Of a stretch of 44,094 bases of DNA, positions 16,290 to 21,772 are shown one piece after another (within the stretch, counting starts at the first letter, position 1; every line of letters starts with the position of its first letter). Below the pieces are notes generated by a model. It was given only the letters and a program-made list of their open reading frames with translations, was not told the origin of the DNA and did no database searches. Both the position numbers and the translations under genes were made by a program. This stretch comes from Actinomycetales bacterium (GTDB lineage: Bacteria > Actinomycetota > Actinomycetes > Nanopelagicales > Nanopelagicaceae), in NCBI GenBank assembly GCA_018970885.1, contig JAGWVL010000007.1, positions 1 to 44,094 on the forward strand, read 5' to 3'.

Positions 16290-17627
16290 ATGTCACCAAC
16301 CTTTGCAGAGTTGCCTCTGCGCAGCCAAACTATTGATGCATTACATGCCCACGGATTTTTAGCACCATTTGCAATTCAAGAGATGGTTCTACCCATTGCA
16401 CTTGCCGATGGCGATGTTATTGGTCAAGCTAAAACTGGAACCGGAAAAACTCTCGCTTTTGGAATTCCTGTTATCGAAAGAGTTATTGCGCCCAACGATG
16501 CTGAGTGGGCAGATTTTGCTACTAAGGGAATGCCACAAGTTTTAATCGTTGTTCCGACACGCGAATTATGTACGCAGGTTACTCGAGACATCGAAGAACT
16601 TGCCTCTAACCGCGGAATTCGTACCCTTGCGGTTTACGGTGGGCGTGCATTTGAACCTCAAATTGAAGCATTACACGCAGGTGTTGAGATTGTTGTTGGA
16701 ACTCCTGGTCGCTTGCTCGATCTTTCACGACAGGGTCAGCTCAAGCTCAAAGAGGTATCCCGCTTGGTTTTAGATGAGGCTGATGAGATGTTAGATCTTG
16801 GCTTCTTGCCCGATGTGGAAAAGATTTTATCTAGCACTCCTAACCGCGCCCAAACTATGTTGTTTTCAGCAACAATGCCGGGAGACATCATCGCTCTGGC
16901 CCGTCGCTTTATGAATCAGCCGATTCATATTCGCACACAAGATAGTGAAGATGAAGGCGCGGTTGTTACCCGAATTAAGCAGCATGTATTGCGTGCTCAC
17001 GCTCTTGACAAGATAGAGATGCTCGCTCGAATCTTGCAGGCCGATGGACGTGGACCCACAATGGTTTTCTGTCGCACCAAGCGCACAGCACAAAAAACCG
17101 CTGAAGATTTAATGGAGCGCGGCTTTAAAGCGGTCCCAATTCACGGAGATCTCGGACAAAGTGCTCGCGAAAAAGCTTTGAGCGATTTCAAGGCCGGGAA
17201 ATCAGATGTTCTTGTCGCAACCGATGTGGCTGCACGCGGAATTGATATTGACGGAATTACCCACGTCATTAATTACCAGTGTCCAGAAGATGAAAAAACA
17301 TATGTTCACCGTATTGGTCGTACAGCTCGTGCAGGTGCACATGGAATTGCTGTTACTTTTGTTGATTGGGATGAACTAGCGCGCTGGAAGATGATTGATC
17401 AAACCCTCGAACTTGGATTAGCTGAGCCAGAAGAGACTTACTCTTCATCTGAACATCTTTATGAAATGCTCAACATCCCAGCTGGATCAACGGGCCGCAT
17501 GGTTAAAGCAAAGCCAGTTATTAAGGCAGAAAGCAAAGATGCTCATCCTGCACGCACAAAGCAAGAAGCTTCAAAGCCACGTACTGAACGTACGCGAACA
17601 CGTACTAAAAAGTTTAAAGAGATCTAA
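16290..17627 (+). CDS. DEAD-box ATP-dependent RNA helicase
   Basis: RNA helicase (445 aa), probably for ribosome assembly, mRNA turnover or cold adaptation. All core motifs are present: Q motif FAIQ, motif I AKTGTGKT (47-54), PTREL, GTPGR, DEAD (162-165), SAT, and in the second RecA domain TDVAARGIDI and HRIGRTARAG. The last 40 or so residues are basic and low-complexity, as in many RhlE/DeaD-type proteins, and probably bind RNA. The ATG at 16290 follows TTAGGATTAATTAAAC, readable as an AGGA ribosome site or as a TAGGAT -10 box. It overlaps the convergent marC stop by 4 nt. Confidence 0.95.
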   Translation: MSPTFAELPLRSQTIDALHAHGFLAPFAIQEMVLPIALADGDVIGQAKTGTGKTLAFGIPVIERVIAPNDAEWADFATKGMPQVLIVVPTRELCTQVTRDIEELASNRGIRTLAVYGGRAFEPQIEALHAGVEIVVGTPGRLLDLSRQGQLKLKEVSRLVLDEADEMLDLGFLPDVEKILSSTPNRAQTMLFSATMPGDIIALARRFMNQPIHIRTQDSEDEGAVVTRIKQHVLRAHALDKIEMLARILQADGRGPTMVFCRTKRTAQKTAEDLMERGFKAVPIHGDLGQSAREKALSDFKAGKSDVLVATDVAARGIDIDGITHVINYQCPEDEKTYVHRIGRTARAGAHGIAVTFVDWDELARWKMIDQTLELGLAEPEETYSSSEHLYEMLNIPAGSTGRMVKAKPVIKAESKDAHPARTKQEASKPRTERTRTRTKKFKEI

Positions 17628-18235
17628 GCGGCAACAAAGACGCGAATCGCATCGACCAACATTTGGACTGCGATAGCTGCCAGCAAGAGACCTGCAATTC
17701 GGGCGACCAGGGTAACTCCTGACTCCTTAATGACATTCAAAATAGTTGTCGATGCCATTAATGCGATCGCAATTGCAATGTGAACCGCTACAACGGCTGC
17801 CGTTAAGCCTAAGGCCATAGCAGTGGTATCTACTTGTTGCACAAAAATCATCGTCGCAACAATTGCACCGGGACCGGCCAAAATTGGAGTACCTAGTGGA
17901 ACCAACGCGATGTTGGAATCGCCATCATCCCCATGTTTCTTGGCATTGCCTGTTAACAGTTCAAGTGCTACCAATAACAAAAGTAACGCACCGGCAGCTT
18001 GCAGAGCTTCCATTGAAATATTGAGGTAGTTCAAAATTGCTCGACCAAAAAGGGCAAAGATAGAGATAACAAGAAGTGAGACACCCGCAGCTTGTACCGC
18101 CAAGACTCTACGAACCTTTGCAGACTTGTCTGCGACCAATCCTAAGAAAATTGGAGTCGCCCCAGGTGGATCCATAATCACAAAGAGTGTGACAAAAGAT
18201 TGGACTGCAAAAGTAATAGCGCTGATATCTTTCAC
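17624..18235 (-). CDS. MarC family integral membrane protein
   Basis: A 203-aa protein with about six membrane helices, UPF0056/MarC family; the exact function is unknown (earlier links to antibiotic resistance are not supported). Recognisable blocks are VIMDPPGATPIFLGL near the N-terminus, PLGTPILAGPGAI in the middle and the C-terminal MLVDAIRVF. I place the start at GTG 18233-18235, because it overlaps the upstream PHP gene stop by 4 nt (GTGA) and sits right before the first helix. A longer frame up to 18283 would overlap the PHP gene by 52 bp with non-family sequence. Confidence 0.88.
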   Translation of the reverse strand: MKDISAITFAVQSFVTLFVIMDPPGATPIFLGLVADKSAKVRRVLAVQAAGVSLLVISIFALFGRAILNYLNISMEALQAAGALLLLLVALELLTGNAKKHGDDGDSNIALVPLGTPILAGPGAIVATMIFVQQVDTTAMALGLTAAVVAVHIAIAIALMASTTILNVIKESGVTLVARIAGLLLAAIAVQMLVDAIRVFVAA

Positions 18236-19077
18236 GCTGAAACCACCCTTCGAGCATTGGCTTGTGACTCTAACTTCTCCCATTGTTCCCTATGGGTATG
18301 GTTTTCTGCTAATGAATTAAGTTTTCCGGTTCCGTGATAATCGCTACTTCCAGTCACAACAAGATCTAATTCTTTAGCAATACTTCGCAACATCGCTCTC
18401 TCATCAGGATTTTGATCGCGATGGTCCACTTCAATGCCGTTTAAACCTACTTCAACTAACTCAGAAAAATCCTCAGCTTTCAGGATTTGGCCACGGTGTG
18501 AAGCAAATGGATGTGCAATTACTGCAACTCCCCCTGCTCTTCGAATTAATGCGATCGCTTCAGCAGGTGTTGGGGCGGCGTGAGAGACATAAAAAGGTGA
18601 TTCATTATTCAGTAAATCGACGAAAGCCTCATCACGTGATTTCACAATTTTCTTTGCAACGAGTGCATCCGCAAGGTGCGGTCTACCCATAGTTGCACCT
18701 GTTGGCATTGCTTGCTCAACATCGGCCATAGAAATATCCATACCTGCTGCCCGCATTTTTTCAATCATTTTGCGCATACGAGGTAAGCGCCCATCACGGG
18801 TTTCGGCTAAAACTTGTTGCATCTCTGCATGCGCTGGATCAAAGAGCAACCCCAGCATGTGAACGCTGATGCCATCTGTCGTTAAGCAGGATATTTCTGA
18901 GCCCAGCGCTAACTTAAGAGAACCACGAACAGTTTCAGTAGCCTCTTTCCAACCAGATGTTGTGTCGTGATCGGAAATTCCTAAAACCTCTAAGCCCTGA
19001 ATAATCGCCTTGTTGACAAGCTCGCGAGGAGAATCTGTTCCATCACTGCAATTGGTGTGGGTGTGCAGATCAATCAT
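18232..19077 (-). CDS. PHP-domain phosphoesterase (RNase AM / nucleoside-bisphosphatase type)
   Basis: Metal-dependent hydrolase of the PHP family (281 aa), related to E. coli YciV/RNase AM and to 3',5'-nucleoside bisphosphate phosphatases. Metal-binding segments are IDLHTHTNCSDGTDSP at the N-terminus, GISDHDTTSGW, the glutamate in LGSEISC, VIAHPFAS, and the C-terminal GSSDYHGTGK. I take ATG 19075-19077 as start. A GTG four codons upstream is possible, but the ATG directly precedes the conserved IDLHTH. It overlaps the EamA gene by 8 nt and marC by 4 nt, so EamA-PHP-MarC is one unit. Likely roles are RNA 5'-end trimming or pAp turnover, inferred from the family. Confidence 0.88.
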   Translation of the reverse strand: MIDLHTHTNCSDGTDSPRELVNKAIIQGLEVLGISDHDTTSGWKEATETVRGSLKLALGSEISCLTTDGISVHMLGLLFDPAHAEMQQVLAETRDGRLPRMRKMIEKMRAAGMDISMADVEQAMPTGATMGRPHLADALVAKKIVKSRDEAFVDLLNNESPFYVSHAAPTPAEAIALIRRAGGVAVIAHPFASHRGQILKAEDFSELVEVGLNGIEVDHRDQNPDERAMLRSIAKELDLVVTGSSDYHGTGKLNSLAENHTHREQWEKLESQANARRVVSA

Positions 19078-19963
19078 TGCTTCCGCCACGAGTTCTAGTT
19101 ACGACTAAGACACATCCCAAGAGAATCAATGCAATTCCAGGAATGATTCCTAGTGGTGGCGTTTGATCCAACCACCAGGCTGCAAGTACCGCACTGACAG
19201 GTACCTCAAAAAATACAATCAGTGAAACAATGGCAGGTGACACACGCTTGAGCGCTGAGTTAAACATTGTGTGACCTAGCAACTGAGCACCAAGGATTAG
19301 CCCTAAAAGTATGAGCCATTCTCTTTGTTCGAAGGCAAAGATTTCATTTCCTGCAAGCAACGCCATAGGTAGCGCGGTAATTGAACAAACAAAGTAACAA
19401 ACCGATGTGTAGGAACTTGTTTCTAAGGTGCGTTGCGCCTTTGACCCAGCCATCATGTAAGCAGCAGCTAATGCAGCTGAAATCAACGCTGCAATATCTC
19501 CCAAGAAGGATCTGAAGGAAATAGTCAGATCCACGCCAGATACTAAAACAACTCCAACGAAGCTAACAATCATTCCAAGCCATGCTTTTGATGGAATATC
19601 TCCACCGCTAAACTTCACAAATAACGCCGCAAATATTGGTTGCAATGCAACAAGAGCTGTGCCCGCTGCAACTGTTGTCATTCTCATTGCTAAAAAGAAG
19701 CCGATAAAGTGCAACGCTAGTAGGGCTCCAGCAAAAACAGCCCATTTAATACCTGCACGATCACGTGAATGACGAAGTGCAAAGGGCAGCGTCATCAAGG
19801 ATCCGCCGAGATTTCTCCAGAAAATTAGGGTCAACACCGGCATTGCACTCATAGCAATTAATGGGCCCGATGTTCCGATTCCGATAATTCCTAGACCTAA
19901 TCGAATCAGATCTGGTTTTGCAGGGATCGCCGTGTGGTCATTAATGCGTTCGCCCGAGGTCAT
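19070..19963 (-). CDS. EamA/DMT-family transporter
   Basis: Drug/metabolite transporter superfamily exporter (297 aa) with about ten membrane helices in two EamA repeats of five, for example around 30-60 and 75-105 in the first half and 190-285 in the second. Conserved features include FWRNLGGS in helix 2, ALQPIFAALF and the C-terminal ALILLGCVLVV. The family exports amino acids, nucleosides or other metabolites; the substrate cannot be told. It heads the EamA-PHP-MarC unit. The ATG at 19961-19963 is preceded by TACCTT and 6 nt, implying a leaderless transcript. Confidence 0.9.
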   Translation of the reverse strand: MTSGERINDHTAIPAKPDLIRLGLGIIGIGTSGPLIAMSAMPVLTLIFWRNLGGSLMTLPFALRHSRDRAGIKWAVFAGALLALHFIGFFLAMRMTTVAAGTALVALQPIFAALFVKFSGGDIPSKAWLGMIVSFVGVVLVSGVDLTISFRSFLGDIAALISAALAAAYMMAGSKAQRTLETSSYTSVCYFVCSITALPMALLAGNEIFAFEQREWLILLGLILGAQLLGHTMFNSALKRVSPAIVSLIVFFEVPVSAVLAAWWLDQTPPLGIIPGIALILLGCVLVVTRTRGGSND

Positions 19964-19969
19964 AAGAGA

Positions 19970-19979
19970 AAGGTACCCT
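19970..19979. promoter_or_regulatory. Overlapping divergent -10 boxes in a GGTACC palindrome
   Basis: The ten bases AAGGTACCCT hold two -10-like hexamers on opposite strands that share TA: minus-strand TACCTT (19970-19975), 6 nt from the EamA ATG, and plus-strand TACCCT (19974-19979), 6 nt from the ATG at 19986. Neither gene has a clear Shine-Dalgarno, so both mRNAs are probably leaderless and use one melted region in alternative directions. Confidence 0.55.
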
Positions 19980-19985
19980 TATCCC

Positions 19986-21263
19986 ATGAGCGGCAATCTC
20001 TTAAACCGAGTATTTCTCGCCCGTCTTGCAGGTACCGCGGTCTTTGACCCTAATGGTGATCCCGTAGGAAAGGTGCGAGATGCTGTCGCGACCCTGCGTT
20101 CAAATAATCAGCAACCACGAATCCTTGGATTAGTTGTTGAAGTGCCTTTGCGTCGTCGCGTTTTTGTTCCCATCACTCGAGTTACTTCCATTGAAAGCGG
20201 AGCAGTCGTCATTACCGGACTCTTGAATATGCGACGTTTTGATACTCGCCCAGGTGAAGTTTTAGTTTTGGGAGAGATGTTGGATCGCTCAATAACCTTG
20301 CTAGAAACCTCTGAAGAGGTTGTTGTTGAAGATATGGGTATGGAGCAAAATCGAAATGGTGATTGGCTGATCGCAAAGGTTCACATCATGCGAAAGGGCC
20401 GAGGCTTACGTAGAAAAGGCGCAACCTCCACTGTTGCTTGGGAAGAGGTTGTTGGTTTTGCCAACGCGGAACAAAATCAAGGTGTAGCTAACCTTCTGTC
20501 AACCCTTGCTAATTTGCGTGCTGCAGATCTTGCGGCGGTGCTTCAGGATCTTGCACCAAAGCGCCGTATCGAAGTCGCAAGTGCACTTGAAGATGAGCGT
20601 CTTGCAGATGTGCTTGAAGAAATGGACGAGGACAATCGCGTTGCACTTCTTGCACAGCTTGAAGGAGAGCGCGCAGCAGATGTTTTAGGTGAGATGGATC
20701 CTGATGATGCTGCTGACTTACTGCGCGAAGTCGGCGAAGAACGTGCAAATGCACTCTTGGATCTGATGGAACCAGAAGATGCTGAAGATGTTTTACGTTT
20801 GATGACCTACGAGGATTACTCTGCAGGTGGAATGATGACTACGGAGCCTATTGTGCTCACCGCAGATTCCACTGTTGCAGATGCACTTGCCGCTGTTAGA
20901 CAAAAAGAGATTTCTCCTGCACTTGCTTCACAGATTTATATTTGTCGCCAACCAGTTGAGACTCCAACAGGGCGATTTATTGGTGTTGTGCATTATCAGC
21001 GTTTACTTCGTGAACCACCTTCAACTCTACTTGGTTCGATTGTGGACACAGATTCCAAGGCCACCAACCCTGATGCAACTTTGCATGAGGTTTCCTCGCA
21101 TTTAGCCAGTTACAACATGCTTTCACTACCCGTTGTTGATGCAAATGAGCGTTTGTTGGGCGCTGTGACAGTGGACGATGTACTCGATCACCTGTTACCT
21201 GAAAATTGGCGTCATGATCACCGTGAGAATTCACCAGTTTCATTTGAGTCGGAAAGCATTTAA
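19986..21263 (+). CDS. PRC-barrel / MgtE N-terminal / CBS-pair protein without channel domain
   Basis: Cytoplasmic protein (425 aa) resembling Mycobacterium Rv1232c. The N-terminal part (about 1-100) looks like a PRC-barrel. The next part (about 160-280) is a MgtE intracellular N domain made of alpha-helical repeats rich in LADVLEEMD-like and AADVLGEMDPDDAADLL motifs. The C-terminal part (about 280-410) is a pair of CBS domains, starting YSAGGMMTTE and ending AVTVDDVLDHLLPE. No membrane helix is present, so it is a sensor module (perhaps for magnesium or adenylates) and not a transporter by itself. The start is ATG at 19986. It is followed 11 nt later by a DUF1003 membrane protein, a conserved pair, suggesting the two form one system. 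Confidence 0.88.
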   Translation: MSGNLLNRVFLARLAGTAVFDPNGDPVGKVRDAVATLRSNNQQPRILGLVVEVPLRRRVFVPITRVTSIESGAVVITGLLNMRRFDTRPGEVLVLGEMLDRSITLLETSEEVVVEDMGMEQNRNGDWLIAKVHIMRKGRGLRRKGATSTVAWEEVVGFANAEQNQGVANLLSTLANLRAADLAAVLQDLAPKRRIEVASALEDERLADVLEEMDEDNRVALLAQLEGERAADVLGEMDPDDAADLLREVGEERANALLDLMEPEDAEDVLRLMTYEDYSAGGMMTTEPIVLTADSTVADALAAVRQKEISPALASQIYICRQPVETPTGRFIGVVHYQRLLREPPSTLLGSIVDTDSKATNPDATLHEVSSHLASYNMLSLPVVDANERLLGAVTVDDVLDHLLPENWRHDHRENSPVSFESESI

Positions 21264-21274
21264 GGGGGCGAGAG

Positions 21275-21772
21275 ATGGCACGTAACTATGGCTTAGACAC
21301 TCCTCGTGAGACCCGTCGATCACTTCGCCCAAATTATGATCCTGAAGCATTTGGTCGTATGTCGGAACGCTTTGCACGTTTCTTAGGAACAGCACGCTTT
21401 CTTGTGTACATGACAATCTTTATTGCATTTTGGGTTATTTGGAACTTTGCAGCACCAAGTAATTTACGTTTTGATGATTACCCATTTATCTTCTTGACCT
21501 TGATTCTTTCTATGCAAGCTTCATATGCAGCACCATTGATTTTGCTTGCACAAAATCGTCAAGCAGACCGTGATCGTATTCAGCTCAATGAGGATCGCGC
21601 TCAAAATGAGCGTTCAATTGCAGATACTGAGTACTTAACCCGTGAACTTGCGGCGTTGCGTAACTCGCTCGGCGAGGTTGCAACTCGTGATTTTGTAAGA
21701 AGTGAACTTGCTGACCTTATTGAGGAGTTAACTAAAGAGTTACGTCGAGACACCCAATCGGACTCCGAGTAA
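21275..21772 (+). CDS. DUF1003 membrane protein
   Basis: A 165-aa protein with two membrane helices (about 39-58 and 69-92: YMTIFIAFWVIWNFAAP, FIFLTLILSMQASYAAPLILLAQNRQ), followed by the typical DUF1003 tail RQADRDRIQLNEDRAQN and a C-terminal coiled coil of about 50 residues. Function is unknown. GGGGGCGAGAG just before the ATG serves as ribosome site. Located 11 nt after the MgtE-N/CBS gene, as for Rv1232c/Rv1234 in mycobacteria, so it may supply the membrane part for that sensor. Its last 33 bp overlap the convergent mrp gene in another frame. Confidence 0.92.
   Translation: MARNYGLDTPRETRRSLRPNYDPEAFGRMSERFARFLGTARFLVYMTIFIAFWVIWNFAAPSNLRFDDYPFIFLTLILSMQASYAAPLILLAQNRQADRDRIQLNEDRAQNERSIADTEYLTRELAALRNSLGEVATRDFVRSELADLIEELTKELRRDTQSDSE

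Follow-up and report, generated by a model that had tools for sequence, protein, structure and literature searches.

How can two divergent genes be transcribed and translated from an intergenic gap of only 22 bp? The question is raised by the junction between an EamA-family transporter gene and a gene encoding PRC-barrel, MgtE_N and CBS domains (hereafter MgtE_N/CBS) in the window, by which we mean the whole 44,094-nt stretch of DNA that was analysed, from a tiny freshwater bacterium. The original prediction described a TANNNT hexamer for each gene, 6 nt from the ATG in both cases and with two bases in common, and this is what positions 19961-19988, which read CAT-AAGAGAAAGGTACCCTTATCCC-ATG, contain.

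Layout of the gap and start codon assignment

The features of the junction are listed in Table 1. The key bases of the two hexamers coincide reciprocally on the two strands, as the -12T and -11A of each fall at the same two positions. By eye, no -35 consensus was visible in either direction at the proposed promoter at 19964-19985. A single instance of the shared-TA layout would count for little, because it requires four fixed bases only; it is conservation and recurrence among the sequences compared that lift it above chance.

The assignment of the start codons is sound for both genes, to judge from the in-frame stops just upstream of them. There is no start codon in frame between the TAA at 19981-19979 and the EamA ATG, and the EamA frame runs 5 codons to its upstream stop in 23 of the 25 loci with an implied start distance of 23. 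At the MgtE_N/CBS gene, an in-frame stop lies one codon ahead of the ATG in 14 of those 25 loci. Downstream of the gap on the minus strand, the ends of EamA, PHP and MarC overlap one another (17624-19963), so that these three genes are probably a single operon transcribed from the reverse promoter.

Table 1. Features of the EamA-MgtE_N/CBS junction and of the flanking genes in the window
Feature	Position	Strand	Remarks
Intergenic gap, 22 bp, AAGAGAAAGGTACCCTTATCCC	19964..19985	.	Entire proposed bidirectional promoter; layout and length unchanged in 23 distinct orthologous junctions
Putative forward -10 hexamer TACCCT (TANNNT)	19974..19979	+	6 nt (TATCCC) ahead of ATG 19986
Putative reverse -10 hexamer TACCTT (TANNNT; plus-strand AAGGTA)	19970..19975	-	6 nt ahead of EamA ATG 19963-19961
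TA common to both -10 hexamers (-12/-11 of each)	19974..19975	.	Invariant in all 23 junctions with an implied start distance of 23
Predicted +1, leaderless MgtE_N/CBS mRNA (A of ATG)	19986	+	From -10 spacing
Predicted +1, leaderless EamA mRNA (A of ATG)	19963	-	From -10 spacing; 23 bp from forward predicted +1
EamA-family transporter gene	19070..19963	-	Pfam: EamA PF00892, 2e-26
PHP gene	18232-19089	-	Downstream of EamA, ends overlap
MarC gene	17624-18283	-	Downstream of PHP, ends overlap
PRC-barrel + MgtE_N + 2 CBS gene	19986..21263	+	Pfam
DUF1003 gene	21275-21772	+	Next after MgtE_N/CBS gene
In-frame TAA upstream of EamA, inside the gap	19979..19981	-	Limits EamA start to ATG 19963 or later

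From the comparisons reported below, we consider it very probable that the gap is a sigma-A-type bidirectional promoter with overlapping -10 elements that share a TA, that it gives rise to two leaderless mRNAs, and that its layout has a single origin. Whichever way it was oriented, RNA polymerase would open the same base pairs and use the shared TA as -12/-11, and each transcript would begin at the A of the gene's own ATG, about 7 nt beyond the hexamer. The EamA-PHP-MarC and MgtE_N/CBS-DUF1003 mRNAs would thus both be leaderless, and would presumably be translated as such. Because the predicted start sites are 23 bp apart, only one polymerase at a time would occupy the site, and the two orientations should be mutually exclusive.

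Both hexamers are conserved at their start codons

The divergent EamA-MgtE_N/CBS pair is found throughout the genus and in much of the family. The nearest complete genome in the public collection is that of Actinomycetia bacterium LanE43 (L035), whose MgtE_N/CBS protein is 100% identical in the match, and the named neighbours are Candidatus Planktophila species. Our set of orthologous junctions, drawn from Candidatus Planktophila and relatives, comprises 108 distinct ones. Alignment of the gap, which had been proposed as a check, bore out the overlapping divergent -10 boxes and, as far as conservation speaks to them, the two leaderless mRNAs: all 108 junctions have a TANNNT at 6-7 nt from the EamA start, 93 have one at that spacing from the MgtE_N/CBS start, 93 have both, and the layout is identical in 23 distinct junctions. 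When nine other hexamers were given equal freedom of start choice, no junction had both, and with nine other spacer ranges, under equal freedom, between 0 and 1 junctions did. Both hexamers are kept at 6-7 nt also in gaps of 29-74 bp, in which the boxes are separate; the reverse hexamer tracks the EamA start codon where that start shifts, and the forward TACCCT or TACTCT is conserved through genus and family. Both genes therefore carry the signature of actinobacterial leaderless genes, a TANNNT at about -12 from the start that is conserved in orthologues. A TA[GC]CCT-like box also occurs near the MgtE_N/CBS start in many Actinomycetes outside the family, and this box looks old.

Three other explanations were weighed against these data. 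In the first, the gap serves chiefly in translation: the forward mRNA would carry a leader from inside the EamA gene, with AGAAAGG (19967-19973) as its Shine-Dalgarno sequence. This element, which stands 12 nt ahead of the forward ATG and resembles the start of the canonical AGAAAGGAGG, was counted against the promoter reading. However, its first bases vary within the clade, leaving only AAAGG, which is largely required by the reverse hexamer anyway, and relatives with longer gaps have no such element there, yet keep TACCCT or TACTCT 6 nt from the ATG. A Shine-Dalgarno sequence also leaves the reverse gene unexplained. Considering the longer-gap relatives and the variation within the clade, we rejected it as the main signal and give this explanation very little chance.

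Slightly less probable again is that only one hexamer is functional and the other is a chance match preserved by the shared bases. With the TA shared, the second hexamer needs just one more fixed base (the T at -7), and a single locus would be little evidence on the matter; nevertheless, in the 93 junctions that have both, the hexamers persist independently where they do not overlap, and the way in which the reverse hexamer follows the EamA start argues against a single functional box. The least likely explanation makes the palindrome, with its partial dyad and its GGTACC core, an operator at which a dimeric transcription factor controls both genes, and the -10 matches incidental. Against it, the dyad is absent from the longer-gap relatives, where each hexamer still stands at its own start, and other loci with the same layout have no common palindrome beyond the TA. 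Of the palindromic core in the original prediction, GGTACC is a true palindrome and the only perfect part, but AAGGTACCCT as a whole is imperfect (8 of 10 positions), and conservation in the bidirectional promoter that we propose falls on the TA common to both hexamers and on the T(-7) of each, not on the palindrome.

Many of the forward exceptions belong to a Planktophila subclade that includes P. lacus (L020, L022, L023, L078, L081, L087, L090, L094, L095, and L099). In this subclade, TACCCT (TACTCT in L090) is located about 6 nt ahead of an ATG, replaced by TTG in L078, from which a six-codon ORF runs; this ORF has GGGAGG inside it and ends in a TGA that overlaps the MgtE_N/CBS ATG. There has apparently been a switch here from leaderless to led or coupled initiation.

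Origin of the fused boxes

The implied start distance is exactly 23 in 23 of the 108 junctions. Across these, AAAGGTACCCT, 11 contiguous columns, is invariant, and the variation lies in gap columns 1, 2, 4, 5, and 17-22 and in EamA wobble positions. On a quick tree built from two proteins (EamA and MgtE_N/CBS), the 23 junctions form a single clade with an SH-aLRT of 99, nested within a set of lineages whose start distances are 30-74, and the distance-23 state is one change. Because they form a single nested clade with an invariant AAAGGTACCCT, the data support the view that the two -10 boxes fused once, within a Planktophila clade, and then stayed fused. The simplest route would be the loss of about 7 bp between adjacent boxes: a related subclade has AAAGGTAGCCGATACCCT, and deleting TAGCCGA from it, as in AAAGG[TAGCCGA]TACCCT, yields AAAGGTACCCT exactly, with both hexamers intact. 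Constancy of gap length is no proof of coupling by itself, as other clades also show fixed gap lengths (e.g., a start distance of 42).

Related species with separate -10 boxes at the same genes thus provide matched natural versions, fused and unfused, with which to ask whether fusing the -10 elements makes the two directions compete or reduces expression noise, as has been proposed from E. coli. The fused version would be a minimal natural bidirectional promoter, with the transcription and translation start signals of two operons within 22 bp, and bears on how streamlined genomes cut intergenic space without losing promoters.

Leaderless signature and compactness in a close relative

For genome context, we used 400-kb stretches of three genomes. 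In that of the close relative G051, TANNNT lies exactly 6 nt upstream of 41 of the 111 genes with a divergent neighbour, over a background of about 1.3 per position; this relative thus carries the genome-wide leaderless signature described for Actinobacteria. The signature is present on both sides in 11 of its 52 divergent pairs, including gaps of 17, 23, 25, and 28 bp. The locus had been called unusually compact. At 22 bp it is compact but not extreme, because G051 has a 17-bp gap with two TANNNT boxes, and the layout itself recurs in the genus.

The 17-bp gap (G051:C1:189161-189178; L144 9161-9178) separates a divergent MFS/ABC transporter pair and contains overlapping TAACCT/TAAGGT, with an implied start distance of 18. 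At G051:C1:199220-199250 (L144 19220-19250), an xseA-like/ispH pair (tRNA_anti_2/LytB) has a 25-bp gap with adjacent -10 boxes, CCTAATAGACT; this arrangement is conserved in most of the genomes matched by the distance-26 pattern.

Recurrence at other gene pairs

We searched for the distance-23 layout with the pattern CAT-N6-ANNNTANNNT-N6-ATG, using the reversed pattern as control. In 31 Planktophila genomes the pattern gave 95 matches, orthologous repeats included, against 11 for the control. Summed from tables, the counts elsewhere in the family were about 66 against 25 (67 genomes of other genera), and those in other families of the class were about 35 against 13 (89 genomes). Simple Markov nulls predicted 17-68 matches in 43 Mb, compared with the 95 observed. 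The raw genus-wide excess thus depends on the null model and should not be overstated, and we toned down a simple claim of strong genus-wide enrichment on this account.

The flanks of the matches are better support for recurrence than the raw counts. We fetched 21 matches, picked to differ in sequence; 15 of these, one doubtful case included, are flanked on either side by an ORF of 60 aa or more, whereas the same holds for 2.1% of CAT..ATG pairs when every gap from 14 to 45 is counted. Nine or more further divergent gene pairs have the distance-23 layout, among them, by Pfam, SRAP/EPSP synthase, SpoU methylase/small membrane protein, TauE/small MoaD-like protein (MoaD-like by eye), tRNA_edit/MFS, DUF554/membrane protein, aldehyde dehydrogenase/hydrolase, DAO-GCV_T/choline kinase, and DUF4389/Gly_transporter.

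We also considered a general excess of all tight spacings and rejected it: the distance-18 pattern, which likewise has four fixed bases, is not enriched (17 matches against 18 for the reversed control), and the distance-25 pattern had no matches in the search. The distance-26 pattern had 17, mostly at one locus (xseA/ispH by Pfam), and the distance-30 pattern had 16. It is conceivable, although we lean slightly against it, that in Planktophila and near relatives back-to-back leaderless genes over a shared-TA 23-bp promoter are a spacing-specific, recurrent device of genome compaction, selected over other spacings and allowing about two gene pairs in each genome to be transcribed in only one direction at a time.

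Among the other loci with the shared-TA 23-bp layout are L232 6354-6381, L238 5411-5438, L223 6427-6454, L226 5599-5626, L230 4816-4843, and L240 6277-6304, where the divergent pairs are SRAP/EPSP synthase, small membrane protein/SpoU methylase, MoaD-like/TauE, tRNA_edit/MFS, and DUF4389/Gly_transporter.

Relation to known promoters

Overlapping divergent promoters with leaderless starts occur in Streptomyces, at aph and ermE. In the literature searched, which covered a minority of the subscription journals, we found no direct description of shared leaderless divergent promoters in actinobacteria. The sequence comparisons give good support for placing the locus in a known promoter type, of which it would be a variant: a 23-bp bidirectional promoter, leaderless on both sides, conserved in its clade and recurrent in a streamlined genus.

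Bidirectional promoters are defined by start sites on opposite strands 7-25 bp apart (PMC10268837), and work in E. coli found preferred divergent start distances of 10, 18, and 23 bp (PMC12825309). The type of Warman et al. (2021), as presented in PMC10268837 and PMC12825309, in which the -10 elements overlap reciprocally, resembles the present locus: starts on opposite strands, predicted ones in our case, flank a shared -10 region, and a distance of 23 bp is one of the three preferred classes. The locus differs in that each predicted start falls on the first base, A, of a start codon, so that the promoter would fill the whole intercoding gap. Spacing differs as well: in Planktophila the leaderless layout is enriched at 23 bp but not at 18 bp, the distance most often seen in E. 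coli and Salmonella.

Opposing polymerases are sterically barred from binding simultaneously at such promoters, and at all five E. coli promoters tested basal activity was so low that competition would count only if one side were activated (PMC12825309). For that reason the competition between the two genes that had been suggested is possible only.

The mark of a leaderless gene is a TANNNT some 12 bp ahead of its start (PMC3160421), and no -35 consensus was found for M. tuberculosis promoters (PMC3898074). The two genes are like such actinobacterial TA-led genes (Zheng et al., 2011, PMC3160421; Cortes et al., 2013, PMC3898074) in having a TANNNT whose first T stands some 12 nt ahead of the start codon, and no conserved -35, and differ in standing back to back with overlapping hexamers. 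Rv1129c/prpD of Mycobacterium tuberculosis (PMC3898074) is also a divergent pair, whose mRNAs were both mapped as leaderless, whereas here they are predicted to be so; the same study calls closely juxtaposed divergent promoters common.
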